Assembly (NCBI GenBank): GCA_963971425.1
Contig: OZ020517.1
Coordinates: 2,606,501 to 2,670,500, forward strand
DNA: 64,000 nucleotides
Reading direction: 5' to 3'
From: Bryoerythrophyllum caledonicum
Lineage: Eukaryota; Streptophyta; Bryopsida; Pottiales; Pottiaceae
Shown here: in pieces, positions 2,147-64,000 of the stretch
How positions within the stretch are numbered: the stretch's first letter is position 1
How the letters are laid out: every line of letters starts with the position of its first letter
Position numbers and translations under genes: made by a program
Notes under the pieces: model-generated
What the model was told of the DNA's origin: nothing
Databases searched by the model: none
Seen by the model: only the letters and a program-made list of their open reading frames with translations

Positions 2147-4233
2147 ATGAGGATTTATGCCATCTCCGACCTGCACACAGATCATGAGGCCAACATGGAG
2201 TGGGTGCGGAACTTATCTTCCAGCGCGTACAAGGCACACACGCTCATTGTGGCTGGCGATGTGGCGAATTCCCTGGAGACTTTCACCACCACGATGCGCA
2301 TCTTGAAGGAGAAGTTCCAACATGTGTTCTTCGTTGCTGGAAACCATGACTTGTGGTGCACGAGCACCGAGGGCTCTGATGTAACTACAGACAACCATAC
2401 TTTGGGCAATTGTTGATGTTTTAAAGGCTTCACTTGAAGCAGCTCCATTTGTGCCTGATCATTAGTTTATGTGGTTGATGTTTGTGCGCTTGTGATGCAG
2501 CTGGATTCTGTGACGAAGTTGAAGATGCTGAACGAGACGTGTGAGTCGCTTGGTGTGTGCACGTCGCCTCAGAAGCTGAACGGGGTCTGGATTTACCCGC
2601 TTCTTTCATGGTATCACAAGGCAATGTTCCTCTTCTCCTTGTTGCTCTTCATAGTTTTATGCTGTTATCATTGAACTAAGCCTTGTTTGTCATGGCTTGT
2701 TCTAACTCGTTTCCCTCTTCGTGTGATGCAGAGTTTTGATAAAGAGAGGGACATTGAGGGGTACAACATTCGCCCACCAGAGAAGGTATCGTGATGGATC
2801 TAGCAAGCTTGACATGCTACACTCTTTATTCTGATCAGTGATGTTTTGTTTTTAATCTCTAGCATGCTACTTAAAAGTGAAATAACTCACCTTAACTATT
2901 TGTGAATATAGTGCTGATGTTGTAAGACCTTTACATACGCTCCAGGCAAAAAGTTTACATGTTCCTACTCTAGGTCAGTAGAAAGTGAATGCACAATAAT
3001 TTGAATCGTTATGTGCATCTGTGCAGGCTGCTTCTGACTTTCGGTTATGTAAATGGCCACTTCCTCTGGACCACATGATTGATGGCAGCCTTGCACGCTA
3101 CTTTGATGAACTCAATCTAGACGAGTTTCAAAGTGCAGTTGCAGACGACCAGGATGCGTACCAGATTATCACTTTTTCTCATTTTTTACCTCGGTATGGT
3201 TCTGATATCGTTACCAAGATTTCTGATTTGAAAAATTCCGATTGTAAACATTCAGTGTGTCTTAAATAATACCGATATGTGTACTACGTCACGAGCCTTT
3301 ATTTCAAATTCTTGATTGAATTTAGCATAGACTTATTATTTCTTTTCAGCCTGAAAGAATCATGTTGGTTAGAGATTGAGGCTCCAACATTTTCATGTAC
3401 TTTAGTTGTTTGTAAAGTCAATAAGATATCCCGCTTGTGACTTACAATACTACTCTTTCCTCACTCTTAATAGCTACTAGATCAATGGAAGAGCTTGGTG
3501 GTCCCTCAAGTAGAGTCCTTAATTAAATACAGAATAGTTGTGGTCTTTAAACTCAAGTTTAAGCTAGGTCTAGTCGCCTTTGAGAATAGAGAAAGAGATG
3601 TCATGTTGTATCTGAATCTTATCCGCCTTTTTCCTCTTTAAGCTGATAATTTAAAATGAGAAAAGAGGTATCTTTGCCTTAGCTTCATGGACTTATGTTC
3701 TTCCAGGTTTGAGTTATGCCCAGAGAAGCGCATGTTGTTTTATCCCAACCTGCCCAAAATCATCGGCTCCGATTGGTTGGAGGTCAGGCTGCGCACTATT
3801 CATGGACGCCATGGTAGCCCAACTGCTTGTCATGTGTTTGGCCATACACACTTCTGTTGGGATGCAACCTTAGACGGCATCAGGTATACCTCCTCTTTTG
3901 ATTGGAGCTTTCAAAGCATGTGAGCCATAGAGTCTGCATGAGAAGATTAGCTACCTTTCAGCTGCTCTGTGATGATACGAAATGCTTCTGGATTTGTGCA
4001 GGTACGTGCAATCGCCTCTGGCTTACCCGAAGGAACGAGACAGGCGCATCAACGGAGGAACAGACTGGTTGCCGCTGTGCATCTACGACTCCGACAAGGG
4101 TGGATTAGTGGAGGGTCCACTGGATTGTCACTGGTCGAGTTACTATCGGCAGAATGAGAGGGACCCAGACAACACGGAGCTTGCGCCGTGGGTGGCGAAG
4201 CTGTACCGACCTGTTGGAAAAGTAGAGACGTGA
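2147..4233 (+). CDS. Calcineurin-like metallophosphoesterase
   Basis: Six exons: 2147-2380, 2501-2620, 2733-2785, 3027-3193, 3707-3883 and 4002-4233, about 327 residues. The start is chosen for its strong context (gccaccATGa) and because the first metal motif follows at once. Metal-binding motifs are SDLHTDH (D8, H10), AGDV (D38), GNHD (N66, H67), FSHFLPR and GHTHFCWD, the order expected of the family; the product should be a two-metal phosphodiesterase or phosphatase, substrate unknown. No signal peptide or membrane segment, so probably cytosolic. Intron 2 starts with GC (CACAAG|GCAATG), which keeps WYHK|SFDKE in frame. Exon 3 is odd: SFDKERDIEG and YNIRPPEK lie in different frames, one base short at the GGG at 2759-2761, which may be a sequence error. 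A 44-base tandem array follows the stop. Confidence 0.88.
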
Positions 4234-27325: not shown

Positions 27326-27874
27326 TTTACACAATGGTGGAGAGCTCCACCGATTGGTCGAGAGGTTTCGGCCAAGACATGGTTATTTGAGGCAAGCGGT
27401 GGATGTTCGACAAGATAAAAAGACAACAATATATAATGCATGAAGAGGTCTTGACAAGTTTGTAGTGTAAATACCATCCAGTGAAGTCCACCGGCCAACT
27501 TCACCACCAAGAAAGTTTAGGCTAGTAAATAGGAACCACAATCCCTAATAGTCCCCATGGACATATTATGTACGTTTTTGGGCTGTAGTCAACTTTGACA
27601 ATCTATAACTTTTGCATCAAGTGTTCAAATCTAGTCAAAATTGTTGGGAAAATGCGCCTACTTGTCTAGTTTGTAAGGTAAAATTTTCAATTGATTCAAT
27701 ATACAATGTAATTTTGGGACTCATTTTAGTTCTACTTCTTGTAAGGAAAACATAGTCAAGGATGGAGAAGAGATATCCCACATTTATTGTGTGAAAAACT
27801 ACTCTTCTCCATTAAATAGTTCTCTCCTTATTCCTCCTCTCCAATTTTCCTCTCTTTTATATTGGTCTAACATC

Positions 27875-29560
27875 ATGGATGGTAGAAGGGGAAAAATCTT
27901 ACTTGCTCTTGCAATTCTTATGATTATGAGACATGTTATTGTTTCAACTATGGCGGTTCAAAAAGTCATCATACATCAATACAATGCTTCAATTATGATG
28001 ATGGCCTTCTTTATATTTGGGAGCAAGGAGTCTAAGAAAGTATGGGCATTTGATCGGCGAGGTGAATTTGTTTCACAATTTCTTCTTGGATCATATAGTG
28101 CAAAAATGTTCAAGAATTGTATTAGGGTGAGTAGACCAACATTTTCATACTTGTGCAAATTGCTTTCACCCATTTTGAGCAAGAAAGATACTCAATGGAG
28201 ACGTTGCATTCCAGTAGAAAATAGAATTTCTTTGACCTTGCATCGATTGGATTCTGGTGATGCTTTGCAAACACTTGCCAATTTATATGGAATGTCAACA
28301 CCAAGTGCTTCAAACATTGTTGGAGAAACTTGTTTGGGAATCAAAAGTGTTCTAAGACCGTTGGTTTTCTAGAGACCTATATTACCTCGGATGAAGCAAA
28401 TTTGTGTAGAATTTGAGAGTTTGCATGGAATTCCTTATTATCTTGGGGCAATAGATGGTAGCCGCATTCCGATTATTGCTCCAAGTGTAGATCTTGCTTC
28501 ATACTATTGTAGAAAGGGATTTTATTTGGTATTATTGCAAGGTGTGGTGGATTATCAGTGCAAATTTTGGTATTATGATTTCGGTTGGGCTGGAAGTATA
28601 CGTGATTGGACATTATTTCAAAAGTCACAAATCATAAAGAAAACCATGTCGGGAGCTTTATTACCATATAAATTGATTGGAGATGTTGCATATCCAATGT
28701 GTCCATGTTCTATTCACTTTTCAAGGGAGAAAAGACAAATTTATCAAGAGAAAAGGCGCATTGGAATTTTATTCATTCTAGTACTAGAATGACTATTGAA
28801 CGTGCTTTTGGCATTTTAAAGGAAAGATGGAGGATATTATTGAAGATGATTGATATGCCACTTAGAAACATTCTGGATATTGTTATAGCTTACTTACATT
28901 TCCATAATTTATGCATTATACATAGAGAAGAATTTGATTTGGATTGGGTATAGACTGTTGAAGAAGATATGAGAAAGGCTAGCACTGAAGCATTTGGTGT
29001 ATTGAAGAATGCAGATATATTCCATGCACTTGAAGTAAGCATACTTCAAATAAGAAGCATAAAAAAGAAGTAGTGCAAGTAGAATTCAACGATCTTGTGA
29101 AAAATGACACAACAAACTATGAAGACATAGATATTGGAGATGAAACGAGGTGGTTGTGAGTTCAAGTCATATTGCGGGCGTGGTGCCTACCACCATAGTC
29201 CATCCAATTATGATGGGGGTCCAAAGGCCTCATTGTATGGGGACCCACAAAGCCCTTGGGGGAGATGACATGTCAGTTGTCTCTAAGGCAATTAGTGTAG
29301 GGAAGCACTTAGTGTAGAAAAGTGATTATCCTCGAGAGGGGGGAGTAGTTCTATTATACTAGCCTATGTCCCGTGGCCATATGTTTAGTGAAGAGAATTA
29401 ACAAACACTATATTCATGCCAATCTCCTTCGGAAACCAGAGTTCTTCTTATTTTGGAGATGAAACAAAACTACATCGTGAAGAGAGGATCAAAGCCATTT
29501 AACATGAAGCTACTTGAACTCACATGATGTTGGCCAAAATATATTTTAAGGACCATTTTT
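27875..29560 (+). pseudogene. PIF/Harbinger transposase, decayed, with a SINE in its 3' part
   Basis: Starts at the ATG at 27875 (MDGRRGKILL). Recognised as a DDE_Tnp_4/PIF transposase: an N-terminal helix-turn-helix-like part (SRPTFSYLCKLLSPIL, LHRLDSGDALQTLANLYG), then the catalytic core YLGAIDGSRIPI (first Asp), GSIRDWTLF (second Asp) and TIERAFGILKERWR (Glu), and HNLCI near the end. It has one in-frame TAG at 28370-28372, a frameshift near 28705 and stops after 28953. The coding sequence continues to about 29560 on either side of the inserted SINE. Terminal inverted repeats and the 3-base target site were not found. Confidence 0.8.
29147..29454 (+). repeat. SINE copy 2, 5'-truncated, with 11-base target duplication
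   Basis: GGAGATGAAAC lies on both sides (29136-29146 and 29455-29465). The insert begins just before the B box (GAGTTCAAGTC), carries the same body as copy 1 on the opposite strand, and ends in a T-rich tail (TTCTTCTTATTTT). Target duplication plus 5' truncation point to LINE-driven insertion. Confidence 0.85.
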
Positions 29561-33446: not shown

Positions 33447-34243
33447 TTAGCCCCTAAAGGACAACGACCTATTTCGCTCTAAAACCAGTCCAAAACTGCC
33501 ACTGTCAAAAAGAGACATGAAAATCACATTTTAAAGTGAATCTCGGATTTTCAACCATAAGATCTTTAAATAGACTTCCATATAAACATGCCATCAAATT
33601 TTGGTTGCAATCCACCGCACGGATTGATAGATTTTAGTGTTTAAAGTCAAAACAATGGTTCATTTTCATCCCTGCGTTGAGTAGATCAGCTGACTTTGAC
33701 TTCATTTTGTATCAAATTTTTGCATTGTACAAGGTCTAAATCTTTTATCATTGTCTTAAGCATGATGTTATTTCCCAACACACCAATTTTTAGAGGTAAA
33801 AATGGGGTGTAGCATATTCAAAACAAGTGTGCAAGGAGTGGAGGTTCAAAAATTGTCATTTCACGTTTTATTTTTTTGTGAACTACGTATGTATTTAAAT
33901 GATAATCCAAACGGCCAATAAGAAGGTTTTCACCACGTATTGTTGTTGAAAAAATAAAAAGTGAAAAATATGAAGATCTCTAGGTTTTATGTAGAAAATA
34001 TGATTTTTTTTTCCTCGTTGCCCGACAATGTGTGAAAATGTTTGACTTGGAATAAAATGCCTATTTACACTAAAGACAAGAATTTTTTTGGGAAATTTCT
34101 AAAAGGAAATATTCTTTATATGTGTGAAAAATCTCAATGTCAATAGAAACTTTAGTCAAAAATTTTGGAGGTGCCTGGAGTCCCCACTTTTGGCTTAAGT
34201 GGTACTAACTTTCAAACCACAAATCCAAAAAAATAAAAAAATA

Positions 34244-36601: not shown

Positions 36602-37524
36602 TTAACCCCTAATGGACTATGACAATATCACACCACAAACACTCCAAAATTGTTGGTCTAGTGCAATGAGTAAAGAAGGAAACAAAACCTTATATTTATA
36701 CATTTGACCGTAGGATCTCAATTAAGATTTACTAAGTAACATACTCACTAATTTTCAAAAACTTTGACCGCACGGATTGAAAGATAATAGTGTTTGAAGT
36801 CCAAAAAATGGTTCATTTTCTTCCCTGCGTTGAATGGATCAGCAAGTTTTGACTTCACTTGGTATCAAATTTTTGCGCTACACAAGGTCTAGATCTTACA
36901 CCATGATTGTGTTAAGCATGATGTTAGTTTTCTATTCACCAATTTTTAGAGGTAGAGAAGGGGTGTAGCATATTCAAAAGAAGATTGCAAGGAGTGTAGG
37001 TTCAAAAATTGCTAATTCACGTTTTATTTTTTTGTGAACTTAATATGTTTTAGAATGATAATCCAATTGGTCATAAGAAGGCTCTTACTACATATTGTTG
37101 TTGAAAAAATACAAGTAAAATATATGAATATCTCTAGGTTTTATCTGGAAAGATGAAGTTTTTTCCCTGCTTGCTTGAAATGTGTAAAAATGTTTGACTT
37201 GAGTTAAAGTGTTTTGTTACTCTAAAGACAATTTTTTTTGACATCTTCAAAGAAGATAATATTATCTATATGTATGAAAAATCTCAATATCAATATAAAC
37301 TTCTAGCAAAATTTGAAGCTGCCCGGAGTCTCATTTTTTATTTTTTGTGGTACTAACTTTCAAACCATGAATCCAAAAATAATAATAAAAATAACTCCAT
37401 AAAGCTCTTATCAAGGAAAATCTAGTACATCATTTTTTTTAAAAATATATATTTTTAAAATTTTAGAAACCTGCCCAAAATCAAAATTGTCCGCCCAAGG
37501 GACACTTGGTCCTTTAGAGGTTAA
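36602..37524 (+). mobile_element. Type I TTAA element, copy 3
   Basis: TTAA at both edges; ends TTAACCCCTAATGGACTA and, inverted, TTAACCTCTAAAGGACCA. Same interior order as copies 1 and 2. About 923 bases, no coding sequence. Confidence 0.8.
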
Positions 37525-38336
37525 AGGATCAAACGTCAGTTAGGAATCATATGTACATGCACGTATTTTACTCTATAAAATACAAAGTATGTATTAAAGT
37601 TTAGCGGGACTAACAACTTTGGATTGAAAATTCTTCAATTAACATCTTTCATTTGGAGGTCATTTCAATATTTCAACCTTATCATGTTCAAATTCAACAC
37701 CACACAGGTAGAATACTATGGTCACCAATGGCACCTTATGATGTTTAACCCTTCAAAATAAAGGATGCTTGAACTACACATTAGGAAAGAAAAAAATTGA
37801 GCTGATTCAAGCTTGTGCTTGGCAAAATACACCTTATGGAGATGGACACTGGTATGGCAAACATACTAGTTTTAGTAAGGATTCTTTTTGTTGAAGAAAT
37901 CATGCGATAAAAATTTGATAATAATTTTTTTATATTTTTAAAGAAGTTGACAAGAACAAAAGACATTACCACAGTAAGTTAAAATCCTTGGATACATCTT
38001 GCCCTTGAAAATATTGCAAATGTTTAATGTGGTAGAACTTATATCTTAAAAGCACAATGTCCAATTATACTATTCTTTTTATGAAATTTGTGAGTACGTG
38101 CCATGCTTTTGTAGTAAGGATAATTTTTTTCATATTGTAGGCTTTGCTACTCTTCTTTTTACTTCTCCCTCACATGCTTATCTTCTTTCCAGAAAAATTG
38201 CAAGTAAATTATTATGAATATCATTGAGCAACAAACTTGGTGGTTTGTGTGATGTGTGTCAGAATTTGACATCTACCGTATTGTCTTCTCTATATACTGT
38301 CAATTCCCTTTACTCATATTACAATTCACCATTGGT
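37525..38336. repeat. Repeat-derived stretch, no gene
   Basis: 37525-37750 matches, inverted, 48840-49010 (CAAATGAAAGATGTTAATTG on one strand) and ends ATGATGTTTAACCC, suggesting another TTAA-ended family. The remainder has no recognised feature. Confidence 0.45.
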
Positions 38337-39245
38337 TTAACCCTTAAACGACCAAGTGTCAAAAATGGGCTATTTGAAAGTTCCGTCAGGTTCCTTTGCT
38401 GTCAATTACCAACATTCTACTTTGAAATTTTTACTAGAGAAGAACATTACTAAGACCTCGGTGAGAGAATAATTTTTTTCCTCAATGTGACATTTATTGA
38501 AAAAGTTATAGGGTTTTGAATTTCAAATGGGGAGAGCGGGCATTTCCGGCACCTCCAAAAACTTTTGCTAGGACACTCTATTGAATGTGAGATTTCAAAT
38601 TCTAGCAAGTCATATTTTTTCCCTTCATGATGTCAAAAAATAAATCTTGTTTTTAGTGAAAAATAGCATATTAACCCAAGTCAAACATTTTCACACATTG
38701 TCGGGCAAGGTATCAAAAAAACTTATTCTTTTCCACATAGAGATCTTCATATTTTTGACTTTTTTTTTGTTCTACAACAATACGTAGTATAAATCTTCTT
38801 GTTGACCATTCGGATTATCAATCTAAAACATACTAAGTTCACAAAAAATTAAAACCCAAATTGGCAATTTTTGAACCTCCACTCCTTGCATAATTGTTTT
38901 GAATATGCTACACCCCTCCTCTACCTCTAAAATTTGGTGTGTAAGGAACTAACATCATGCTTAACATGATGGTAATGGATTTTGACTTTGTGTAGTGCAA
39001 AAATTTGACACCAAGCGAAGTCAAAGTCTGCTGATCCACTGAACGCAGGGAAGAAAATAAACCATTTGTTCGACTTTAAACGCTATCATCTTTCAATCCG
39101 TACAATCAAAGTTTATAAAATTTTGTGAGTATGTTACTGAATAAGTCGTATTTGAGATCCTATGGTCAAAACTAGAAATCAAAGTTTTGTTTCCTTCTTT
39201 ATTCTTTGCACTAGAATCCAACAATTTTGAAGTGTTTTTGGATTG
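38337..39245 (-). mobile_element. Type I/II TTAA element, one end lost
   Basis: Left end TTAACCCTTAAACGACC. The interior is the type I interior reversed (GGGGAGAGCGGGCA, CACACATTGTCGGGCAAGG, CTCCACTCCTTGCA, GATCCACTGAACGCAGGG, CCAACAATTTTGAAGTG). The right end is missing. It is closest to the copy at 59.4 kb. Confidence 0.6.
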
Positions 39246-44880: not shown

Positions 44881-47568
44881 CAATGGGGTGACACCCAAAT
44901 TGGCACCTTGTGCAATTCCAGGGATAGTGCCCACACTGCTGCCAACTTTGACACCCTCCCGAGCGCTGGAAAATTGTTATTTATACATGAAATTTTAGAC
45001 ACAAAATCACTGTTATGTTGACAACATGTGTACCAAATTTCAAAGCTAGAAGATTGATACAAAAAAATATATTCAAGATTTACTAACAAGGGGTAACTGT
45101 AAGAAATGTTTCACAACTGCCAACTTTGACACCCTCCCAAGGATTGAAGAATTTTTTTTTTCATATGAAATTTTTGGAGTAGAAATATCTTTATGTTGTT
45201 TACACATTTGAAAAAATTCAAGTCCAAAAGACCCACCAAAAAAATGATATTCCAAATCTACCAACAGGTGTAGTTGTGAGAAACAAAGGGGAGAATCGTT
45301 TCACAACTTCCAACTTTGAGTCTCCCTAGGGCTGAGAATCTGTTATTTCAATATGAAATTTTTGTCACATGATCTTTATGATGTTGACCACATGTATGAA
45401 AATTTTCAAGGCCAAAAGATACACAAAAAAATAGTTATTTTAAATCTACCAACGTGTATGTCCTCCATTAGCATCAATCACTGTTTGTAACCTAGAGGGC
45501 ATAGAATGACATAATTGAAGGAGCTTTGTTTCACTAATTGACTTCCACTCTCTTTCAAGAACTACCTTCAATCCATCTATGTTTCTAGGACATGTCTTGT
45601 TACGTTGTACTGCATCTTTTAGAATCTTCCACAAGTTCTCAATTGGATTGAGATCGGGAGAGTTTGCAGGCAATTGAGCTTTTCAAGAAGGCGCAGTTGT
45701 CTCCATTCTTCACATATTTTTCTACGATGGACGGGTGCGCCATCTTCCATGAGCACTACATGTGGAACTTTAACCATGAAAAGAAATAATTCCCCTTCGT
45801 AAACCACTTTCACAAAATCATTTGCAGAGCGTCGATCTTTAAGCATATAAACAAGTTTTGACTTTTGGCCTCCAGCAAATGCGCCCCAAATCATCAAGGA
45901 AGTCTGTCCACTTTTAAAAGTAGGAACTATACAATTTGATGAATACCGCTCATACGCAGTTCTGCAAACACGAACTTGTCTCGAATTCTTCCCAATTTCA
46001 AAGGTAGATTCATCTGTCCATATAATACGCTCCCAATCTTCTGTGCTCCATCCACGGTACTTCTGAGCAAGAACCAACCTTTGATATATGTGACGAGGTG
46101 TCAAAAAAGGTTTTTTGACTGCAATTCGACTAAAAATGCCACTTCTATGTAAGAGCCTTTGAATGGTACGTCCACACACTGGAGTAGGATATACACTAGC
46201 AATCTCTGATACTGACGCGCAACGGTTAATTTTTTAGAAACGCAAAATACTACGCACATCGCTATCACTAAGTTTTGTAGTGTGACTTCCACCACAAGGT
46301 TCGTGCTTGTAAGTTCCATTTTCTCTAAATGTTTTCATCAACCTCTTAACTGTTCTAACAAAAACTTTGATAGTGGGTGCAATTTGAACTTGAGTACTCC
46401 CTCCCTCACTCATACCTATAATACGTCCACGAATTTCATCGGAAATTTCCATCTGAAATATGTTGAACTTTCTTTTACTAGGCTAACAGAACCTTAAACT
46501 CTCATTAACAACATTAACAATTTTATACACAATCAGTCACAAAATCACAGCATTTAGTCCATTACGCATAACCACATGCACATCATTCAGCCTAGTAAGA
46601 ATAACCACATGCACATCATTCAACATGCATAAGCAAGCATGACTAAATTACTCACACAACACATCACTCCATGTCTCACACACAACACATTCTTTCTCTC
46701 TACTCTCACCATTACTCCAACATCCAATGATCACAAACCACATGCAACATTCCCTTAAGTTTATACAATAGTGTTCAATTGATATTTAGAGGGGGAAACT
46801 TCGTCATGCGTGTATGATGCAAGTGGTTTCTTCTTGATGTGACAACTCCACACTTCTACATTTGGATGTTACTGATTTTTCTTAGATGCATTTATGATTA
46901 GGCATTGTGTCAAATGGATAAGTTCAATGAGGAAGCATGAGGTGTCAAAGATATTTCAATCCTTTCACCATGTCCTTGAATTGGTTATTGTCATTACACA
47001 CGTTGGTAGATTTAAAATAACTATTTTTTTGTGTATCTTTTGGCCTTGAAAATTTTCATACATGTGGTCAACATCATAAAGATCATGTGACAAAAATTTC
47101 ATATTGAAATAACAGATTCTCAGCCCTAGGGAGACTCAAAGTTGGAAGTTGTGAAACGATTCTCCCCTTTGTTTCTCACAACTACACCTGTTGGTAGATT
47201 TGGAATATCATTTTTTTGGTGGGTCTTTTGGACTTGAATTTTTTCAAATGTGTAAACAACATAAAGATATTTCTACTCCAAAAATTTCATATGAAAAAAA
47301 AAATTCTTCAATCCTTGGGAGGGTGTCAAAGTTGGCAGTTGTGAAACATTTCTTACAGTTACCCCTTGTTAGTAAATCTTGAATATATTTTTTTGTATCA
47401 ATCTTCTAGCTTTGAAATTTGGTACACATGTTGTCAACATAACAGTGATTTTGTGTCTAAAATTTCATGCATAAATTTTCCAGCGCTCAGGAGGGTGTCA
47501 AAGTTGGCAGCAGTGTGGGCACTATCCCTGGAATTGCACAAGGTGCCAATTTGGGTGTCACCCCACTG
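44881..47568 (-). mobile_element. Tc1-like transposon, copy B, with ~575-base inverted ends
   Basis: 2,688 bases; ends CAATGGGGTGACACCC and, inverted, CAGTGGGGTGACACCC; TA on both sides (44879-44880, 47569-47570). Inverted arms 44881-45450 and 46990-47568 are nearly identical, so the 63-residue frames at 45.1 and 47.2 kb are mirror copies of arm DNA, not genes. The transposase lies between the arms on the minus strand. Near-identity of the arms suggests a fairly recent insertion. Confidence 0.9.
45446..46452 (-). pseudogene. Tc1-like transposase (DD34E) of copy B
   Basis: Starts MEISDEIRGRIIGMSEGG at 46452 with the paired helix-turn-helix region (TVKRLMKTFRENG, TIQRLLHRSGIFSR), then WERIIWTDESTFEI (first Asp), VVLMEDGAPVHR (second Asp) and PANSPDLNPIENLWK (Glu). 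Spacing from second Asp to Glu is about 34 residues, the Tc1 signature. Cut-and-paste transposase binding the arms and inserting at TA. An in-frame stop near 46234 and a frameshift near 45672 break it. Confidence 0.88.
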
Positions 47569-51958: not shown

Positions 51959-52742
51959 TAAGGATTCATCACAATTTAACTCTTCCATTCATCTTATAGC
52001 TATTAAGAATAAACAAATATTAGTATTGTTAGTGGAAAAACCGTTCTCTTATTGAAATTTTGGCTAATTTTACAGATAACTCGAATGTATTAAATTCTTT
52101 GGAAGACCATTGGGTTCGGCAACTTAGGCTAGTTTTACACTAAAAACACGCAATTAAGCAATTATGCACTTAGCCAAGTGCACTGGTTGGTGGTAGAAAG
52201 CCGCAAGTTATTTGCCCATAACTTTTTTTTAAATCAAAATTTGGCAAAATTTTAGTATGTTTTTTGTCAAATTTTTTTGGTGTTTGTTGTATCATACATT
52301 GGCATCTTTATGTTCATATCAGTAATATATTTTTTCCATTCGCTAACTTTTTTTAGAAAATATATGATTTCTACTCTAGTTTGCAAATCATGCTACAAAA
52401 TTATGATCATGTGCCCAAAGAGATTATAAATGTGTTATGAGTTATTATAGGATTTTAGAGTACTGCACTACAAACACAATGTGTAAGAGATACAAAAATA
52501 TATATGCAAATTCCTAAGACAGTGTAAAGTACCTCACTGTATTTTATAATGCAAAAACATACATAATCAAGCAATTCCACACTATTGCTGAGGAATTCTA
52601 AAATCAAACATATCATATGGACCACCCAATATATAAATATATACCACCAACCGAACGATAGACACATCTCAAACTGCATAATACTAACGTACTTGCCACC
52701 TAAACTGCGTGCATGCTCTACTATAGTATAAAGCTCCACGGC
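51959..52742. other. AT-rich stretch downstream of the long minus-strand gene
   Basis: Probably the 3' untranslated region and flank of the neighbouring reading frame; no repeat ends or genes recognised. Confidence 0.4.
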
Positions 52743-55700
52743 TCACAGCTCATCTGCTGGCGGAACGACTCCCTCCACGTGTCCAATGGCGCTACCTACC
52801 ATAGCGGATAGTTCATGATCCTCCACTGGACGATCTCCCACATCTTCGATGCCAATGGACGCACACTCAACAAATCGGTAATTGCCATGAACACCCTCCC
52901 GCGTATGCCTTACCCTATCATCATTATAGAAAAAGCCATCCTTTGCATTGAAGGACATCTCTCGCTCTGATGAGAAGGCCCCCTGAAATGCAATGATGTC
53001 CTCGGATACGCTAGATCTTGGAACGGGAGGCAAACCTGGTCCGGTATCACTCTGAGTACCTCCAAACGTCTCTTGTGTCTCCGATACAGGCTCTGATTGA
53101 GAAGGCATCGAAGGCTGTCGCATCCTCCTCTGCACCGAAAAAAATTCACATGAATCCAATCCTTCTTCCTCCATCTCCAACCTAGGACCATCAAATGTAC
53201 GCCCCCGTCCTGCCCCTGCCGCCAAACTAACATCTACTACACCTGTATCTTGCATCCTCTCTGTAGGTGTTGCAGACGTCGCCCCTAAAGTATCTCCTAC
53301 CGTCCGCTGCGTTGATGGAATTCTCTCTCCATCCTCATCGGCGTCTGAATCACTGCCAGATGAGAAATCTTCAGTGGTACCTGAACGTGGCAATCTCTCA
53401 TGTAAACCACCTCCATCCTCATTGTCCTCTTCATTCCTCACTCCACCAACCGCATCTTCGGTCTCAGGTATGGTGTTGCAACCAGTACTTGTTCCACCAG
53501 TCCTGACCAACAGTTGTCTTTGGAAATTGTCGGACAACTCATTGTACAGGAATGAAACTCTGTCTGTACAATCGTCAATGATGAAAACCTCAGATCCCTG
53601 GAAATCTCCTTCAAGGATCGTGGGAATGGCCGTAGATATGTTACACGCCACTAAACCCCAACCACGGGGCAAGTATGAGCCCACTAGTCTTGCGAGCTCT
53701 GATGGAGATCTCTCAAGTGAATCAACTTCAGAGGGTTGGCGTGCCTCACTCCAGTGATCCAAGAATACAAGTGGAAGTGGAACGTCTCCAGAAACATAGT
53801 TCGGGCCAGGAGATGTACCCACAGGGTGTTGCATATAAATCACAACATCGCCAATCGGTTCTACTACTTGCTCCAGACGCCCATTCTCTGTAAAATCAAG
53901 AGCATAGGGATTAACCGAGTTGGGATCAAAGGCCCAGCATCCACGTCGCGTAGTACATCCCTCTGGAAGCTTCACCTTCGTGAAAAACTCCTCATTGGCA
54001 TACACAGCCGCTGGTAACAAGAAGATGACGTTCCATCGTTCAATATTTGCCATCCATAATGTCAGCTGTGCAAAAGCTGCGGATAATTGGGCGTCTCCCC
54101 AATGACCATCTCCATGCCTCCCACCGCCACGTCGACAATCAATCACCCACAAACATGGTTTCCCCAACTCTATGTAGTCGGTGCGGAATAATCCTCTTCT
54201 ACACCGAACCGGAAGAAGATTCTCTGTGTCGCTCTGCCCTGGCCTCTTGACTTCCATCTGCCATTCCCAATTAGCAGTAGCCAATTCTCCCACATCCACG
54301 GACAGTCCAATGTATCCACGCCCCCCTGCTGCAATGTCACCATAATGAAACCTGATGGAAGGGGGGATGAGGTAGCCTATGTCTTCCAGTTTAGACACCT
54401 TCCCTCGCACAGGAGCACTCGAAGCTTTTTTCGTGGCAGCATTCAAAAGCTTCTCAAAGGTATCAAGTTGTGCACTACTCCTCGGAAAATACTTCGCTAC
54501 ACGGATACGAAAGAACTCTTCCATGGAATCAGGTGTACTTTCCTTGTTCTCCACCATCAACCAACGGATCGAATTCATCACAGCTTTTCGTCTCTGATAT
54601 CGGTCAACCACACCGGCAATCGTACGAGGATGTGGATTCTTGTCTTTTACACCGTCGAAGTAATATGCTTGAGAAGGTCTTACTCCATCCTCCCTCACCG
54701 GCTTCGCTGCAGCAGACTTTGCCAACCGAAGATAATATGGATTCGGAACCCTACCTAGAGGCCTCAACCAATTCTGCGTCATCTCCTTTCTTGTTGGTCG
54801 TACGTCCACATTTGGATCGAGCTCTTTCTTCCTCGCCATGTCCTTCCACTTGTCCTCTTCCTCCTTGCTGTAAAAGAGAATGCCGTCTTCGTAGTCCTTG
54901 CATACTTGAATGATAGCTTCGAAGCAGTCATTGCTCGGATTCCATGCATGATTGGTCAGATCCTCCATGTTTTTGGCCAACCTCTTCACCGTGACAACTC
55001 CATCCCCCTTGGGCAACTTATGCACTGCACTTGCCGCACTCACCAAAGCAACAGCCCTGCGTACATCGTCCGCACGTAGTGTGCTATCAGGCCTCCCGTA
55101 TAGATCCCAAATCTGACGGATCTTCCTCAAATCCTCCTCCATGGTAGAATATGAATGTCTCTGGAACTCCGCCACGTTGATCCGCGCAGACTTCTCAATG
55201 TAAAAGCGACGATCATCATACACCACAAAAGAGGCCTCCCGCCGCTCAAACGTGTCCAGATACTCGTTTAAAGGCATAGTACCATCTCTCCACTGCTGCT
55301 GTGCAAACTTGCAAGCTGCTACTATGTGTTGCCCATCCACCGATTCCCAAATGATATGATCTTGAAGCCAAGAATACTGGGATCCCATAGCACCCTGTGC
55401 AGATGCACTCCCGTGTGCAATGAACATGCGCTCAAACTCTCGTGCGGTTCCTACCAACGGAAATGGCAGCTCTTCCTTCTCAACGACACCATCATCGGTG
55501 GTAGTATGCACGATGTATCTGATCGGTCGAAGTACCAATCTACTCACCCGAGTCGCGCATTCTGGGTCCCGTAAGCGGTTGAATACTTCTATGACCCTCT
55601 TCTGTGATAAAACCCGGTGGTTGGTTTCTGGATTCTCCACAGAGACAATGCGGTCTATGTGTGCCTTAAACACAAATTCCCCCACACTGATCCTTTCGCA

Positions 55701-56685
55701 ATCTCCTCTGTTGTAGGCACTGGTGCTTTTAAATTCATTGGAGTTGGAAGATCCTGTGGTATCTCCGCATTGTCTTCAAAATCCTCTGGTATACTGTCTG
55801 GAAGGTTGTGAAAATCTTCTTCCTCCGGCGCCATGGCTGACAAATCAGCTAAATCTCCCGGTGTAGATGTAGGGGCCCTACGATGACCATCAGACGTCAT
55901 GAGCCCCGACCTAGGAATCCTGGCACCTAATCTTGCACTTCTCCCAATCAACCTCCTCCCACTTGGATCCAAACTTGATGGGCCTTCTCTTGAACCAGAA
56001 GCTACATCAATGTCTGCACGTCGTGGCCTCTTCGTAGGACGTCTACTCGTTAATGGAGGATTCGGTAATGTCTGTACCTCAAAAGTTGTGGCGGGATGTT
56101 GGCCTCCACTTCCTCTCCCCCCCTCCAATGGTCGCCAATCCAGTTGCAACGGCTCAGCAAGAATTCGATAAACTTCTGTTTCTTCCGGTTCCGCTGGTGG
56201 GGCTTGAGTTGTCGCACGTGATGGGTCCCTCTCCCGAAATGCCTCATATCTAATATGTTCCTCCATAATCTTCTTAGCCTTCAGCACCATCTCCGGTGAT
56301 AACGCTAAACAGGCTAAGACGTTGTTGTGTCTAGCAGTACGTACTGCAAGAGAGATGTTCAACCAAAACGTCTGCAATGATTTGAGGAATCTCACTTGAC
56401 CTGGATTTTGAAGAAGATTCAAAGGGACAGGTGCAAGAAGCAACTTCTTCGAAAGAGAAGTCTTCACCTCCGATTGACCTGGACCCACGCGCAAGTAATG
56501 TATACCATATCATCACGTCGAAGAGTGATTGCTTGGATTTTGCCAAAACTCTTCCCCAACGCCGATGTACGCTTTCCCAACTCAAAATGATAATCCGTCA
56601 CCCACAAGAAGGCGTTCGACTCATCCACTTCCGCGATCCACCAGCCGTAGCTCTCCCAGATTCTATCAATATTTGGTGGTGCCAT
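52743..56685 (-). CDS. Long unknown protein with a methyltransferase-like fold region (three frame segments)
   Basis: Starts at the ATG at 56685 (MAPPNIDRIWESYGWW); three segments in different frames follow directly: to about 56490, to about 55690, and the uninterrupted 980-codon segment to 52743. Each change is one base short at a G run (GTGGGTCC near 56490, GTGTGGGGGAA near 55680), so an error or a recent mutation are both possible. Together about 1,310 residues. The first ~70 residues look like a compact domain; a disordered Pro/Arg linker follows. In the long segment (numbered from 55685) residues ~430-720 hold PCLWVIDCRRGG, NVIFLLPAAVY, DVVIYMQHPVG, SPSELARLVGSYLPRGWGL and EVFIIDDCTDRVSFLYNEL: strand-helix order as in a beta-class amino-methyltransferase, but with DCRR where DPPY is expected and no glycine-rich motif. 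The C-terminal ~250 residues are acidic and disordered. Divergent from the DUF7869-type gene. Confidence 0.6.
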
Positions 56686-56747
56686 AACGCAACACTCAAA
56701 AAACCTGTATATCATTACAAAACGATAGTCACTATTAGTATGGAATA

Positions 56748-57478
56748 AGAATTTTTGAACCACCACTGATTGCACAATTTTTTTGAACATGCAACACCCC
56801 TTGTCTACGTTTAAAAACTTTTGCACTACGGAAGATCTAAATCCAATACCATTGTGTTAAGCATGTTGTTAGTTCTTTGGTGAAATAGCATATTAATCCA
56901 AATCAATTATTTTCACACATTGTCACACATTTTCGGCCAAAGTACCAAAAACACTTCTACCTTTCTACATAAATCTTCGAGATCTTCGTATGATTCACTT
57001 TTGATTTTTCCTACGGCATTATGTCATGTAAACCTTCTAATTGACCATTTAGATTCTAATTTCAAACAAAATGAAGTTAAAAAATAAATAAATAACGTGA
57101 ATTAAGAATTTTTGAACCTCCACTCATTGTACAATTTTTTAGAATATGCTACACTCCTTTTCTACCTCTAAAAACTTTTGCACTATACAAGATCTAAATC
57201 CAATAGCATCGCGTGAAGCATGTTGTTAGTTCTTTGGTAAAATAGCATATCAATCCAAGTCAATTATTTTCACACATTGTCACACATTTTCGGCCAACGT
57301 ACCAAAAAAACCACTACCTTCCCACATAAAACTTTGAGATCTTCGTATTATTCACTTTTGATTTTTCCTACAACATTATGTGATGTAAAACTTCTTATTG
57401 ACCATTTGGATTCTCATTTAAAACAATATCGAGTTCCCCAAAAAATATAACGTGAATTGAGAATTTTTGAACCTCCAC
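56748..57478. repeat. ~355-base tandem repeat running into the assembly gap
   Basis: Units start GAATTTTTGAACC at 56748, 57107 and 57461 (spacing 359 and 354). Each carries ATATGCTACAC, TCTACCTCTAAAAAC, GCACTA..AAGATCTAAATCCA and TTTTCACACATTGTCACAC. The unit is derived from the interior of type I TTAA elements. It begins 63 bases upstream of the long gene's start codon. Confidence 0.8.
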
Positions 57479-57678
57479 NNNNNNNNNNNNNNNNNNNNNN
57501 NNNNNNNNNNNNNNNNNNNNNNNNNNNNNNNNNNNNNNNNNNNNNNNNNNNNNNNNNNNNNNNNNNNNNNNNNNNNNNNNNNNNNNNNNNNNNNNNNNNN
57601 NNNNNNNNNNNNNNNNNNNNNNNNNNNNNNNNNNNNNNNNNNNNNNNNNNNNNNNNNNNNNNNNNNNNNNNNNNNNNN
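57479..57678. other. Assembly gap of 200 N
   Basis: Exactly 200 N, a placeholder length, at the point where the third tandem unit begins. True size unknown. Confidence 0.98.
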
Positions 57679-58300
57679 GTGGAGAGAAGAGTTGTGAGGG
57701 AGAGGAATGGAGGGGAGGTGTGAGGGAGAGAAATTTGGTTGCGGCTAGGGTTTGGGAGAGAGAAGAAAAAAGATTGGGGGTTGTGAGGAATGGTGGGGAA
57801 AAAAAAAAAAAAAAGTAGCCGCCGCGCCTGGGCCAGGCGGCAGCGAGGGCTGCCGTGCGGGCTGCCGTGCGGGCTGCTACGCAGGGCTGCCGCGCAGGTA
57901 GTGTGCTACTCATCATGATGGTTTTGGTATGGCCTCACAGAAACTCCGGGCGCAGAAACTTTTAGTGTTGATTGTAATGGTGTACAGGAACCCACGAAGC
58001 TCTTTCTCACTTTCGTCGAGAGGAATCACGAAGGTCCTTGCATGAGGTTTGAGCCAGGAAGTTTTTGGATGGATGGAGGAGCACCAGGAGTTGGGGGTGT
58101 GCGCGCGCACACCCCATGAGGCGTCACGCGAACGCCATGGAGAACGAGGGGACTAGGGTTTGATTTTAGGGTTTGGGTTTCTAGTTGCGGCGGCTAGGGT
58201 TTAGTTGTGGCGGCTAGGGTTTGGTTCTGGCGGCTAGGGATTGGTTGCGGCGGTTAGGGTTTGGCTGCGGCAGCTAGGGTTTGAAGTAGTGTGCTGATGT
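57679..58300. promoter_or_regulatory. GC-richer stretch with telo-box minisatellite
   Basis: 57679-57800 is GA-rich; a GGGCTGCC-type array sits at 57840-57895; 58150-58290 has a ~20-base unit (GGCGGCTAGGGTTTGGTT) repeated about six times, each unit holding a TAGGGTTT telo-box. The composition resembles host promoters in this window and differs from the flanking AT-rich repeats. A short minus-strand frame at 57913-58110 has no recognisable domain. No gene is claimed. Confidence 0.5.
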
Positions 58301-59390
58301 GCCATTCCATAGATTTAGTGCCACACTACGGGCTACTCACATTACTGAAGTTTTCAGTGGGTTTTGGTGTCACTATTTGATGTTACTAGTTGACTGACTA
58401 GTTGTAAACAAATAACTTCTGTTGTATTTGTAATTTTTGAACATACTGAAGGTGTCCTCGTTTGTATGCTCAAATATTGGTACTGCTGACCTTACACTAT
58501 TGTAAATCTGACCGATCTATTATCATCATGAACCTAACCCTGGAGTTCCCTCGGATTCAGAATTGAAACAAGGTTAGAAGCTTACCAAATTTGCTGAAGT
58601 CTCCTCGATGTGCAAATTTCCTTCAATCTACACAGTCCACACAAAGTTGACAGAAGTCAGTGATTGAAGTAAAAACGCACATGGCCTTGAGCTTTCGATT
58701 GCAAGAGAGCTTACCTTAGGTACTGGGAAGAGAAATGACCTCCAGATTTTCACAGAAACCTTATATCCATGCTGGAAACTTGTGCCTGAAGTGTACTAGT
58801 CAAAATTTGACTTTCGAAATTTGGACCTTTTGCTTTGTATTTTCTTATGTTTAAACTTTTTACATAATATATTAAAATTTTGGGCTATATGTAATACGAA
58901 GATACATAGGAGTTATTATCACATAGTTTACCATATAAATTTTATGCATGTGTCGCAGGTAAAGTGGGAAGGGTTAAAAAACATGTCCAATAACGACAGA
59001 ATGGTGATTCAATGTTTAACGCCATCAAGCATCAGTGCGTGTACCACTAATACCTGCTACGTATCTTGAGGTAAACATTTATTTTTATACAAGTTTAAGA
59101 TTGATTATTGATTGATCTTCTATACTATGTTGTTTGTAGAATAACTTTTATGTGGATGTACAAACCTTTCTTTTATTAGGGATTGTAACAAGTTCCAATG
59201 GTTGCAGTAATAGCTCGTAGACAACATGGTTCACTTTCTTCCCTAGGTTCAGTGGATTCCCTCCGTTTTCAGTTCACTTGGATTCAAAAGATTGCATCAC
59301 ACCTGATCTAGATTCATTATCATCATGTCAAAACTGATATAAGTTCCATTTTACACCAATGTTTAGGGATACAATAGAGGTGTAGCATAT
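58301..59390. other. Intergenic stretch with one exon-like segment
   Basis: 58956-59068 is bounded by GTCGCAG and GAGGTAAAC and contains an ATG (58983); it could be a 5' leader exon of the downstream gene, but no join keeps a frame. Nothing else seen. Confidence 0.35.
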
Positions 59391-60337
59391 TTAGCCCCTA
59401 AAGGATCATGTGTCATAAATAAGATTTTTCAAAATTTAGGCACGTTCCTATGGTGTCAGTTTCCAACATTCCTTCTTTGAAAATTTTACTATAGAGAGGC
59501 ATTACCAAGACTTCAGTGGGAAAACAATTTTTACCTTAATTGGACATTTGATAAAAAAGTTTAAGGGTTTTGAATTTCAAATGGGGAGAGCGGGCAAGTC
59601 CGGCACGTCCAAAAACTTTTGCTTAGACACTCTGTTAAATGTGAGATTTTCAGTACTTGCAAGTAATATTATTTCCTTTGACGTTGTCAAAATAAGTTCT
59701 TGTCTTTAGTGAAAAATAACATACCAACACAAACATTTTCACACATTGTCAGCCAGTGTTGGGCAAGGTATCCACAAAACGTCTTGTTTTTCAAATAAAA
59801 CCTAGATATCTTTTTATTTTTTAGTTTTTATTTTTTCCAGAACAATATGTGGTGTAAACCTTCTTATTGACCTTTTGGAGTACCAATCTAAAACATATTA
59901 AGTTCACAAAAATCTACAGAGTGAATTAACAAATTCCAAACTTCCACTCCTTGCTCAATTGTTTTGAATATGCTACACCCGTTCTCTACCTCTAAAAATT
60001 GGTGTACAAGGAACTAACATCATGCTTAACAAGATGGTTATGGATTTAGACCTTCTGTAGTGCATAAATTTGACACCAAGTGAAGTCAAAATCTACTAAT
60101 CCACTCCACGTAGGGAAGAAAATGAACCATATGCTTGACTCAAACACTATTATCTTTCAATCTGTGCGGTCAAAGTTTATGAAATTTTGTTTATATATTA
60201 CTTAATAAACCTTAAGTGAGATCCTATGGTCAAAACTAGAAATTAAATTTTTCGTCTCCATTTTTGTTTATTGCATTAGAATCCAACAATTTTGAAGTCT
60301 TTTTTTGTGTAAGACTGTCATTGTACCTTCAGGGTTA
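59391..60337 (-). mobile_element. TTAA element related to the copy at 38.3 kb
   Basis: Left end TTAGCCCCTAAAGGATC, right end TACCTTCAGGGTTAA. The interior follows the 38.3-kb copy closely (GGGGAGAGCGGGCA, CACACATTGTC, CTCCACTCCTTGC, CCAACAATTTTGAAGT). It lies between the two divergent long genes and carries no coding sequence. Confidence 0.7.
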
Positions 60338-60556
60338 AAGACTCCGTGCAAGGAATTCATGCTCTACAAATTCTTATTTTTTTCATTTCAAAGCAGTTTT
60401 ATCAAAAAGTCCAATTTCATCATCATATTTTGAACAGTAAATATGTGTTTAGAAACATTTCTTTTATTAGATGAATGGTGCTTTGAAGGTTTAGAATTAG
60501 TACATGTATTTTGACTAATGTGCAGCCATAATGTTCCTATGTTTTTAATAGTGATA

Positions 60557-63500
60557 ATGGAGAGCCGCACGATTCAGACTCCTTCGATACGGCCACACAT
60601 CCAAATGGATAATATACATTCCAATAGCTCAGTGGGGGCTCGTTTAGTACAAGCAGCACGTGCAAGGCAAATTCAACAGAGATCTGTTGGGATCATGACA
60701 TCTGAATTAGATACGGCCGTAGAATTGCTTTCTGAGAGAGGAGATGTGGTGGGCTTAGCAATTAGGGAGCATGCATTCAAAAGTGGCATGGAATTGAATG
60801 GGTCGAAGTTGTTCCCATACGAGGTGGCGGTGCGTATCACTAGGGTAGATGATGCATTGCATTGGACCGGAGAGATTGTAGGAGAACGCCTTGGCATGTG
60901 TATGGGCTTGATCATTCGTTGGCATCGGTCTTTGCTACGTGTAGTGGCTGTAGAACCTGATATTACAGGTGTCCATGGTGACATTGGATCACAGATAGCG
61001 CCTGCACAAGTGATGGCTCCAGAATTTAATTTCCATGAGTTCATCACCACACCTGGATCCACCCAGAGGTCTCGACGCATTAGTCAAGCTTCTAACGCCA
61101 TAGATAAAAATTCGTCGTTTTTCCAGCCTACTCCCTCAAATATCCAAGATTTGCCCCATGTAGATGGATTTTCTTATCTGAGACCAGCACGTCGTCCCTA
61201 TTCTATGCAAAATAGGAGAAGGAGAGATTCAAGGGAGACATCATTGACAGAAGCTGCACCATTTAAGGTATCGCTTAGAAGCGTGCAAATTGCAATGGCA
61301 CAAGGAGGATGCAAACGCAATTGTTTGAGGGACGTTCCAGCAAGGTATCTATTGGACATGCGATATAATGCATGGGCTACTGAGTTTTCAGTACGAAGTA
61401 CGTGGATGAGACAGATGCTGGTTTCTTTTTATACAAGGACGGAAGGAACTCGTCGAGACAAGTTTGTAACAAAGTTAGATGGAAAAGAAGTTTGCAATGC
61501 TTGCTACGCTCTTGGGGTTGGATATTCACAGAGGCGCTTTAAGCAATTGAAGAAAGACTGTCTAATATATGGGAGAGTGACATCGATTCACGGCAATACC
61601 CTTTCAGATCCGATCAGAGAGAGCACTAGAATGTCTGCAGCAGATGCTTGCTTTAAATCATTTGTTGATGAAGCTGGTTGTCCTCAACCTCATCGTTGTA
61701 TTCGCCGTAAGAGTGACAACGAAGTGGTGCCTCTCATTCTCCTTCCTATGAATACAGCCAAATTTGATGTATTCAATTACGTGAACGAGGAGGTCAAGAG
61801 AATTTGTAATGGAGAAACCATTTCTATGAGTTCGTTCCGGAGGATGTGGCGCATCAAGTATCCCCACGTTTAGGTACCTCCATTCTCAAGATTCTCAAAG
61901 TGTTATCATTGTTGGGAGTATAAATGTGCCATGGAGGGAACCACCAATGCGGATGCAAGGATAAAAATAAAGGAGTTGTTTATGTTGCATCTGCGCAACC
62001 AGATGGAAGAACGTAGGCATTATTGGATATTCAAGAGGTCGTGTTATATTAGCCCTGAGTTGTACATGTGCATCATAGTGGATGGCATGGACCAAAACAC
62101 GACCATGGTACCGAGGATGCGTCAGACTGTGAAGAACATTGAACACCGATTTGTGAAGACCCATCTATGTGGTGCTCTTGTACATGGGATTGGTTTATAT
62201 TGCGACGTGTGGTTTGGGGCTCACCACAAACACGATAGCAACCAAGTCGTGAGTACATTGTTGTACGTGATAGGAGATGTGTTGCGGAGGAGGGGCTTTT
62301 TGCCACCAACACTGCGAATTCAGGCGGACAACTGCACACGTGAGAACAAAAACATTTATATGTTTGCTCTATGTGCTACATTGGTGGGATTGGGGTTTTT
62401 TCAGGAGGTAGAACTATCTTTTCTCATAGTGGGCCATACACACGAAGATATTGATCAACGCTTCAGTTGTATATCAAATACGTTGAAGAGGTCGGACGTG
62501 GATTCGTTGAAGGAAATGATGAGTCTTATAGAACGAGGAACATCCCCTACGGAGGCATTTGTTAGCGCGCGGCTGCTAGAGAATGTATGGGATTGGAAAA
62601 TGTTCATAACTCTTCACTTATTGACAGGTCAGGATTCATTGGTGGGCATAACATTTCCGCACCACATGCGATTCTACATGGACAATCGAGAAGGGACTCG
62701 TGAGGTTCGAGTACAACACAAGCATTATTGCAAGGATCCATGGGGACCGGAGGCAGGGACGAAAACTTTGAGGTCATTGCCAAGTAGGGATGAACGACCA
62801 TCGTTTGCGGAAGTATTTGCAGCGGACGAACGGGAGTTAAAGGCGTTGGATGACTTCATTACATATAAACAAAGGTGCATTCAACGGTTGCAGCATGAGG
62901 ACAAGAATCGTGAGGCAAAAGTAGAGGCTGAAAGATTGAAACTCTATTTAGCTCAATTTCCACACAAAGACCGTAGCAATGAGCATCGTACCTCACCGTT
63001 TTGGCCTTCAGAGTTCTCCAACATCGGACCTACAGAGAGTGCATCTTTGGATGTAATGGATGGTGCAAGTGAAGAAAATCGCGAGGTACATGTCGTAGAG
63101 CAGGTAGTGGCCATGCTTCCAAATGCCGAGGCTCGAGGATACTTTGGTCCTCGTAGAGGAAGACCCTCTAATCAAGCAGTGCGTAGGGCACAACAAACAG
63201 AGCGCAACTATGTTGAGGAACGCGCCGAAGAAGGAGCAATGTATGAAGGTAATCACGACCCATTTCCACCATTTAATCCACAATCTGATATCCGTTGTGG
63301 ACAGTTTGTAGCCTTGAGTGTTGATCGAGCAGAGATAGAAGGCGGTGTACCATTCTATGTGGGGAAAGTGATTGAGGAAGGAAAAAACCGATGGAGACTT
63401 AAGATTAAAGTTTGTTGGTATTGGCCCATCATCCAAAGGGGGGTTGCTGATGGACATGGATCTTCTGCACAACGATATGCGAATTGCATGGATTCATTCT

Positions 63501-63748
63501 GGGAGCCATCTGGGGAGAACCATAGTTGGGTAGAGAAAGATGCATGCATTTTTTCATGGGTAGACACACCGGAAAGAACCATGTCCGGGGCCAACGGGTG
63601 CAGAAAGCGCAATGTATTTGGAGTGCAGGTTGAAAGCAGGATTCGCATTCTTCAATCGGCAAAGGCTCACATCCTACAATATATTGCAATGCAAACCGAA
63701 GCTATCGATGACGATCGTTTGCAAGCAGCCCTAAATTCTATGGAGTAG
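60557..63748 (+). CDS. DUF7869-type protein with RNase H-like catalytic core; one internal TAG
   Basis: From the ATG at 60557 (MESRTIQTPSIRPH) one frame runs to 63748, broken only by a TAG at 61871-61873; the 18 codons after it (VPPFSRFSKCYHCWEYKC) are protein-like, so this is one gene, not two. About 1,060 residues. Order: a novel N-terminal part; the family's zinc-type segment (GGCKRNCL..., then VCNACYALGVGYSQRRFKQL); SKCYHCWEYKC; the core with IIVDGMDQN, LRIQADNCTRENKN and FLIVGHTHEDIDQRFS (Asp, Asp, His/Asp); a coiled basic stretch; a C-terminal domain (FYVGKVIEEGKNRWRLKIKV) like the chromo/BAH-type tails of relatives. From memory, DUF7869 proteins are multi-copy in many eukaryotes and look like DDE transposases; transposition activity here is inference. 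The TAG could mark a pseudogene, readthrough or a sequence error. Confidence 0.75.
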
Positions 63749-64000
63749 ATAGTGTGCCTTTTTTAGAGTATACTAGTTGTGTATGGTAATTGATATATAC
63801 TGTATGTGTAAGAGTAGTATATTCTAAGGGTGATGTAAGACGTTATGTCATTAATCCTTTAGAGTAAAGCTGTGTTTACTATCGGTGCTAAGTCCAATTG
63901 TTGAAGCATCTATATTTAGTTTTCACCATTGTATGCATTATCTACTATGTAGAATATCTTTTAATCAACTGCCAACCCTTGCAAAAAGTATGTTTTTTTG
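63749..64000. other. 3' flank of the DUF7869-type gene
   Basis: AT-rich, no repeat end recognised. I compared it by eye with the flank at 52.0-52.7 kb and found no inverted match. Confidence 0.4.

Follow-up and report, generated by a model that had tools for sequence, protein, structure and literature searches.

Do two long, back-to-back reading frames in a moss genome belong to a single mobile element and, if so, what might the second protein do for it? The question is raised by 64,000 nucleotides of Bryoerythrophyllum caledonicum DNA (OZ020517.1, positions 2,606,501-2,670,500, in a 437-Mb genome of 894 contigs), hereafter the window, in which long frames run at 52743-55775 on the minus strand and at 60515-61873 and 61874-63748 on the plus strand. 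A first-pass annotation made from the sequence alone had read them as a divergent module of a methyltransferase-like gene (left) and a DUF7869-type putative transposase gene (right) separated by about 3.9 kb, and the frames and the gap are where it placed them. We find that the two genes are carried by one transposon with terminal inverted repeats (TIRs), and that their divergent order recurs far above chance, in diverged families too. Our reading of the whole, to which we assign a probability of about 0.6, is that one class II transposon would unite a DUF7869 transposase with a DNA-binding cofactor, derived from a ParB-methyltransferase protein, whose catalysis is lost or altered.

Both genes lie within one transposon

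Aligning the ends to other copies places the element at 52145-64342 (12,198 bp; 52145-64000 within the window, the last 342 bases lying past its edge), well beyond position 63748, at which the module had been thought to end. It is flanked by a TAAA target site duplication (TSD) at 52141-52144 and, outside the window, at 64343-64346; neither the element nor its TSD has a strand. The left TIR, AACACGCAATTAAGCAATTATGCACTT, occupies 52145-52171 on the plus strand and the right TIR ends at 64342. Homology stops at 52139-52145 in all seven other copies at the left boundary, and 18 of 19 other loci align to 64342-64356 at the right one; the remaining locus aligns to 63945, the right TIR being nonetheless present. 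All eight left loci start with AACAC[GA]CAATTAAGCAATTATGC, and the right TIR, ...GCATAATTGCTTAATTGCGTGTT, is found at 20 of 20 right loci, with one mismatch in one of them (L014). The ends of other copies thus lie outside both genes; ends between the two genes, which would have spoken against a single module, were looked for and not seen. The TSDs of the window family are TAAA (window), GTAA (L002/L015), TATA (L005/L013) and TGAA (L008/L010), so that a 4-bp duplication was found in each of the four copies for which both flanks are available; with AATA in the diverged family F52 (see below), TIRs and a TSD of fixed length, as expected of a cut-and-paste TIR DNA transposon, are present in all five elements with both ends read.

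A second full copy (L050/L051; 12,772 bp) is colinear with the window element and 98.6-98.8% identical to it outside a stretch around 57479-57999, in which the window sequence contains 200 N (57479-57678). Far from standing in a repeat desert, as first supposed, the region is repetitive in its own right: searches gave 697-787 first-look candidates in the genome, the best 40 of which were scored each time. Allowing up to one mismatch, the TIR 27-mer occurs at 815 plus 845 places (about 1,660), as against none for a reversed control. Among the first 100 of these places, for which left- and right-gene matches were typed on contigs C1 and C2, 27 neighbouring inward-facing pairs lie up to 30 kb apart; 12 of them span 11.3-14.4 kb, 11 span 2.2-7.1 kb, one 9.9 kb and three 19-25 kb, the group of 2.2-7.1 kb probably being internally deleted, non-autonomous elements. 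At least three of the 27 enclose both a left and a right match, and at least three only one, among the matches listed.

The divergent gene pair recurs in diverged families

Recurrence of the two genes side by side was assessed with 133 left loci, obtained by merging the 45 best places with 95 overlapping ones found using a distant left relative, and with the best 150 of 3611 DUF7869 candidates. Since the gene searches scored the best 40-150 of 684-3611 candidates, the resulting counts are lower bounds. Within 15 kb, at least 54 pairs are divergent, three are in tandem and none is convergent; on the 13 large contigs, 53 pairs were observed, while random placement gave a mean of 1.4 and a maximum of 6 in 1000 runs. 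Among the tandem cases, C14:4780656 has, in addition, a divergent gene of family F53 at a distance of 27 kb. Two copies about 65 kb apart, C14:1676553 and C14:1741706, have identical scores in several searches and are perhaps a segmental duplication.

The DUF7869 proteins of the genome form families that are 35-79% identical to the protein of the window family (L010), and the close divergent pair is seen in three of these families, down to 36% transposase identity. In F56, the right and left proteins are 78% and 55% identical to those of the window family. In F52, the right protein is 36% identical, and the left one aligns in two stretches, at 31% (E 6e-20) and 21% (E 5e-12); its element measures 10,998 bp, begins with the TIR AACACCGGTT... 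and encloses both genes. Families F53 and F55 have no partner in the upstream DNA close to the right gene, and their left loci came up only in a wider search against 139 left loci. This search used the 8 (F55) and 7 (F53) best-matching of 42 and 40 rows as right places, second pieces omitted, the other rows being mainly different families at 68-71% identity. A divergent left locus lies at 15.9-58.8 kb from four of the eight F55 places and at 13.9-27.0 kb from three of the seven F53 places, in each case the best matches, with a chance expectation of about 0.05 left loci per place within 80 kb in any orientation. Each of these distant gene pairs likely represents one giant element. Upstream of the DUF7869 gene of a further family, F54 (L060), the stretch that lies upstream of the left gene is matched weakly, over short lengths, once every 2.0 kb, which suggests a tandem array with a period of about 2 kb.

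Both genes are under purifying selection. Within the window family, the ratio of nonsynonymous to synonymous substitution rates (dN/dS) has a median of 0.32 over 183 left-gene pairs and of 0.27 over 189 right-gene pairs, out of 190 for each gene; pairs with dS up to 0.005 were dropped (7 and 1, respectively), and the pairs are non-independent. When the window family is compared with F56, the right gene has a dN of 0.13 against a dS of 0.88, and the compared part of the left gene a dN of 0.24 against a dS of 1.27. Both proteins were therefore constrained while the elements spread.

The DUF7869 protein is very probably a transposase

The right gene (60557-63748, plus strand) encodes a protein of about 1,063 residues from its ATG in open copies and matches Pfam DUF7869 (PF25273) with an E-value of 2.6e-50, as the first-pass annotation had proposed; the scores of 171-173 bits stand far above the curated cut-off of 26 bits. 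The gene is a single open frame at 6 of 20 loci, and in L050/L051 both genes are single frames, of 1077 (right) and 1371 (left) residues from stop to stop, so that introns are not needed, again in line with the earlier view. Its RNase H-like core (62081-62695, plus strand) comprises a DGMDQ motif (62081-62095) and the DUF7869 region (62147-62695), with QADN at 62321-62332 and GHTHEDIDQ at 62432-62458 on the same strand. The aspartates of DGMDQ, QADN and GHTHxDIDQ are invariant in all nine rows of an alignment of right proteins (D523, D605, D645 and D647), and the predicted model has the RNase H order of secondary structure elements, with strands at residues 517-524, 554-559 and 563-566, a helix at 575-593, a strand at 599-605, a helix at 610-626, a strand at 631-637 and a helix at 643-656. 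PIWI and Argonaute proteins contain an RNase H fold; they, or chains of the SPARDA complex, make up nine of the top ten PDB fold matches of this model, none of which is significant. The aspartates and the predicted order of strands and helices agree with the RNase H-like core proposed at the outset, which gains no significant support from fold comparison. Taken together, motifs and model indicate that the DUF7869 protein is very probably a transposase. A Pfam search of the protein returned DUF7869 only, membership of the KDZ group not having been looked for beyond Pfam, and no paper found in our literature search names DUF7869. Towards the C-terminus of L010, residues ~925-1015 are rich in strands and have conserved W and P residues; this region may resemble chromatin-reader barrels of the Tudor or BAH type.

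A partner resembling ParB and methyltransferases

The left gene (52743-56685, minus strand) encodes about 1,310 residues from its ATG in open copies, and 21 of its 45 places are without a stop and have a frame of at least 1300 residues. Alignment and motif define a ParB-like region at 55326-55682 (minus strand), which ends with a VDGQH motif (55340-55326). In the five left sequences from outside the window that include the motif, it always reads EPxDGQH, and the window copy has ESVDGQH; it recalls the DGxHR motif of ParB proteins but is without the arginine. Further on, a methyltransferase-like region (53535-54152, minus strand) runs from LWVIDCRRGG (54152-54123), at the place of motif IV, to SFLYNEL, at the end of a part that resembles motifs X and I. 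This later part of the protein reads LWxxDC followed by RWN or similar, DC[RN] being conserved at the place of motif IV, and its C-terminal stretch sits where N6/N4 methyltransferases have motifs X and I.

The methyltransferase label given in the first-pass annotation is not supported in that form: layout and motif position speak for it, the fold matches are insignificant, and the catalytic motifs were not found. The [DNS]PP[YFWH] catalytic motif is missing from all five left sequences covering its place (L030, L061, L072, L073 and L080), and the [FL]xG[ST]G motif for S-adenosylmethionine binding from all four (L030, L061, L072 and L080). These absences do not prove a loss of catalysis, because such strict patterns overlook real enzymes too: among four phage methyltransferases used as a control, the first was found in three and the second in two. 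Of the top ten PDB fold matches of the predicted left model, seven are to METTL3/14 or to MTA1c, an adenine methyltransferase of Tetrahymena. In a viral fold library, the best match is unnamed (E 0.012) and a phage adenine methyltransferase stands at rank 12. The adenine methyltransferase of the Natrialba phage PhiCh1 combines a DGxHR motif, presumably ParB-like, with a methyltransferase region behind it in one protein. This enzyme (MK450543, L076) has DPPY and FAGSG, neither of which was found in the left protein.

Sequence searches with the left protein gave no significant family match in Pfam, NCBIfam or PHROGs. Sequence searches of the PDB and scans with PADLOC, NCBIfam and PHROG models returned nothing informative, no relative was found in the viral contigs searched, and a search of the genome with PF02195 gave no match. 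Alignment of the left profile by hhalign to the four phage methyltransferases, or to the PhiCh1 enzyme alone, produced nothing significant. From motifs and model, we consider the descent of the left protein from a methyltransferase, and its predicted loss of catalysis, likely but unproven.

A search of the genome with PF01555 found 8 places above the cut-off among 235 candidates, none of them within 20 kb of a left locus. Another repeat family (L074, C3:23900-25900) encodes a fragment of N6_N4_Mtase (PF01555, 3.6e-7) at 577-936 and 1208-1669 in a broken frame, and is possibly another transposon with a methyltransferase gene.

State of the window copy and other repeats

Both genes are damaged in the window: a stop codon at 61871-61873 interrupts the right frame, while the left gene is spread over three overlapping frames; this copy is a dead member of its family. 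The gap between the genes holds a tandem repeat upstream of the left gene (56746-57478, period 357, 2.1 copies), present in many but not all copies, and an internal repeat at 59390-60304, both without strand. The suggestion that the gap gained these repeats later does not hold for this insertion: both are also in L050/L051, within the near-identical sequence, and were therefore not added after the window copy inserted. Homology stops at 56750, short of the satellite, in 6 of the 20 loci of that stretch, so the satellite is not universal among copies and may have been gained within a sub-lineage of the element.

Elsewhere in the window, stretches at 33614-34111, 36602-37286 and 38336-39239 are 76-80% similar to the internal repeat, in both orientations, and are maybe debris of related elements. 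A Tc1/mariner-type transposase fragment lies at 45622-46233 on the minus strand (HTH_Tnp_Tc3_2, 2.8e-10), and a weak match to HTH_Tnp_4 (0.0056, below the cut-off) at 27695-28369 on the plus strand may be a Harbinger-type remnant.

A working model and its alternatives

In the model that we favour, the DUF7869 protein would be a DDD/E transposase, cutting at the TIRs, which start with AACAC, and joining the ends to target sites staggered by 4 bp. Its partner, a putative descendant of a protein with ParB-like and N6/N4-methyltransferase parts, would bind the DNA of the element, at its ends or internal repeats, as a non-catalytic or catalytically altered cofactor that would most likely aid transposition or escape from silencing. 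Its function would parallel that of the accessory ParB-methyltransferase gene that lies on the opposite strand in the Ectocarpus element Sola1-1, catalysis apart. Action by DNA binding rather than by methylation is likely but unproven. More tentatively, and at less than even odds in our estimation, a degenerate ParB-methyltransferase may have become an obligate non-catalytic partner, a reader of DNA or of modified bases that would assemble on the ends or shield the element from silencing, in a lineage that would, in a single genome, have diverged down to transposase identities of about 35% and given rise to giant forms whose genes lie 14-59 kb apart.

Several observations weigh against this model. 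Among the best 150 DUF7869 matches, 76 of the 133 left loci find no partner within 15 kb, although the two families occur together far above chance. No left locus lies within 80 kb of four of the eight F55 and four of the seven F53 right places, one F53 place also has a convergent left locus at 29 kb, no element ends were found for F53-F55, and F54 has no partner in the 8 kb read. The right model has a mean predicted local distance difference test score (pLDDT) of 55, and none of its Foldseek matches attains E 0.001. The left model, at a pLDDT of 46, is poor, and E-values of 0.10-0.38 accompany its matches to METTL3/14 and MTA1c; comparing the profile of the left protein with ParB and with methyltransferases likewise gave nothing significant.

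An alternative in which the left gene encodes a second transposition protein of unrelated origin, such as a DNA-binding subunit, with a chance likeness to ParB and methyltransferases, is doubtful, if the best-surviving one. Neither hidden Markov model searches nor hhalign gave significant homology, and conserved pairing would be expected of any essential subunit; yet the top fold matches are mostly adenine methyltransferases, hhalign aligns DGQH with the ParB-like motif of the PhiCh1 enzyme (at a probability of 0.3%, which is insignificant), and architecture and orientation are as published for Ectocarpus (PMC12477816). Somewhat less probable still, in our judgement, is a left protein still active as an N6-adenine or N4-cytosine DNA methyltransferase, which would mark the element's own DNA, as proposed for algal proteins. 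The order of a ParB-like and then a methyltransferase-like part, the proposal made for Sola1-1_Ec32 in the same source and the predominance of METTL3/14 and MTA1c among the fold matches, insignificant as these are, agree with such an enzyme, but the two motif patterns, which also miss some real enzymes, are absent from every left sequence that covers their places. A captured passenger gene without a role, or two elements side by side, is very improbable given the ends that both genes share, the pairing statistics, which extend to F52 at 36% transposase identity, and the purifying selection on the left gene, even though 11 of the 27 TIR pairs are too short for both genes, from which it follows that elements can move in trans.

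Relation to known elements and significance

Sola1 elements have a 4-bp TSD, as do those of Sola2, and the element described here shares this feature. Sola2 elements have 4-bp AT-rich TSDs, short TIRs and a large transposase (888 residues in one case), all of which recall the present element, and accessory proteins in some cases (PMC3627910); the accessory protein described there is Fanzor1, unlike the ParB- and methyltransferase-like partner found here. A kinship of DUF7869 with the Sola transposases would fit this analogy. The closest precedent is Sola1-1_Ec32 of Ectocarpus, a 21.5-kb transposon whose opposite-strand gene encodes a 1104-residue protein with ParB-like and N4/N6 methyltransferase domains (Genome Biol 2025, PMC12477816); its authors cite relatives in green and red algae and propose that ParB-methyltransferases bind and modify their own element. 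Sola1-1_Ec32 and the present element are both large DNA transposons with an accessory gene on the strand opposite the transposase, a likeness of gene arrangement, the DUF7869 and Sola1 transposase sequences not having been compared. They differ in size, the elements read whole here measuring 11-13 kb, and in the catalytic motifs, which were not found in the partner protein here. Fungal transposons with TET/JBP dioxygenases likewise carry a DNA-modification protein, but of another enzyme class (PMC12730594).

The first-pass annotation knew of no described plant element with this pair; the arrangement has a precedent in Ectocarpus, and for land plants our literature search, mostly at title and abstract level, found no such element. 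The combination of a divergent transposase and a ParB-methyltransferase-type gene is already known from algae; what is new is the apparent loss of catalysis, the abundance of the elements and the depth of their diversification. A domain of unknown function, DUF7869, becomes a probable transposase with defined ends and TSD, and the algal idea of a ParB-methyltransferase transposon now reaches a group that is both abundant and diversified. With a partner that is under selection yet apparently lacks the methyltransferase motifs, it becomes testable whether such proteins are kept for methylating or for binding DNA, a question for which a genome holding many near-identical copies is well suited.

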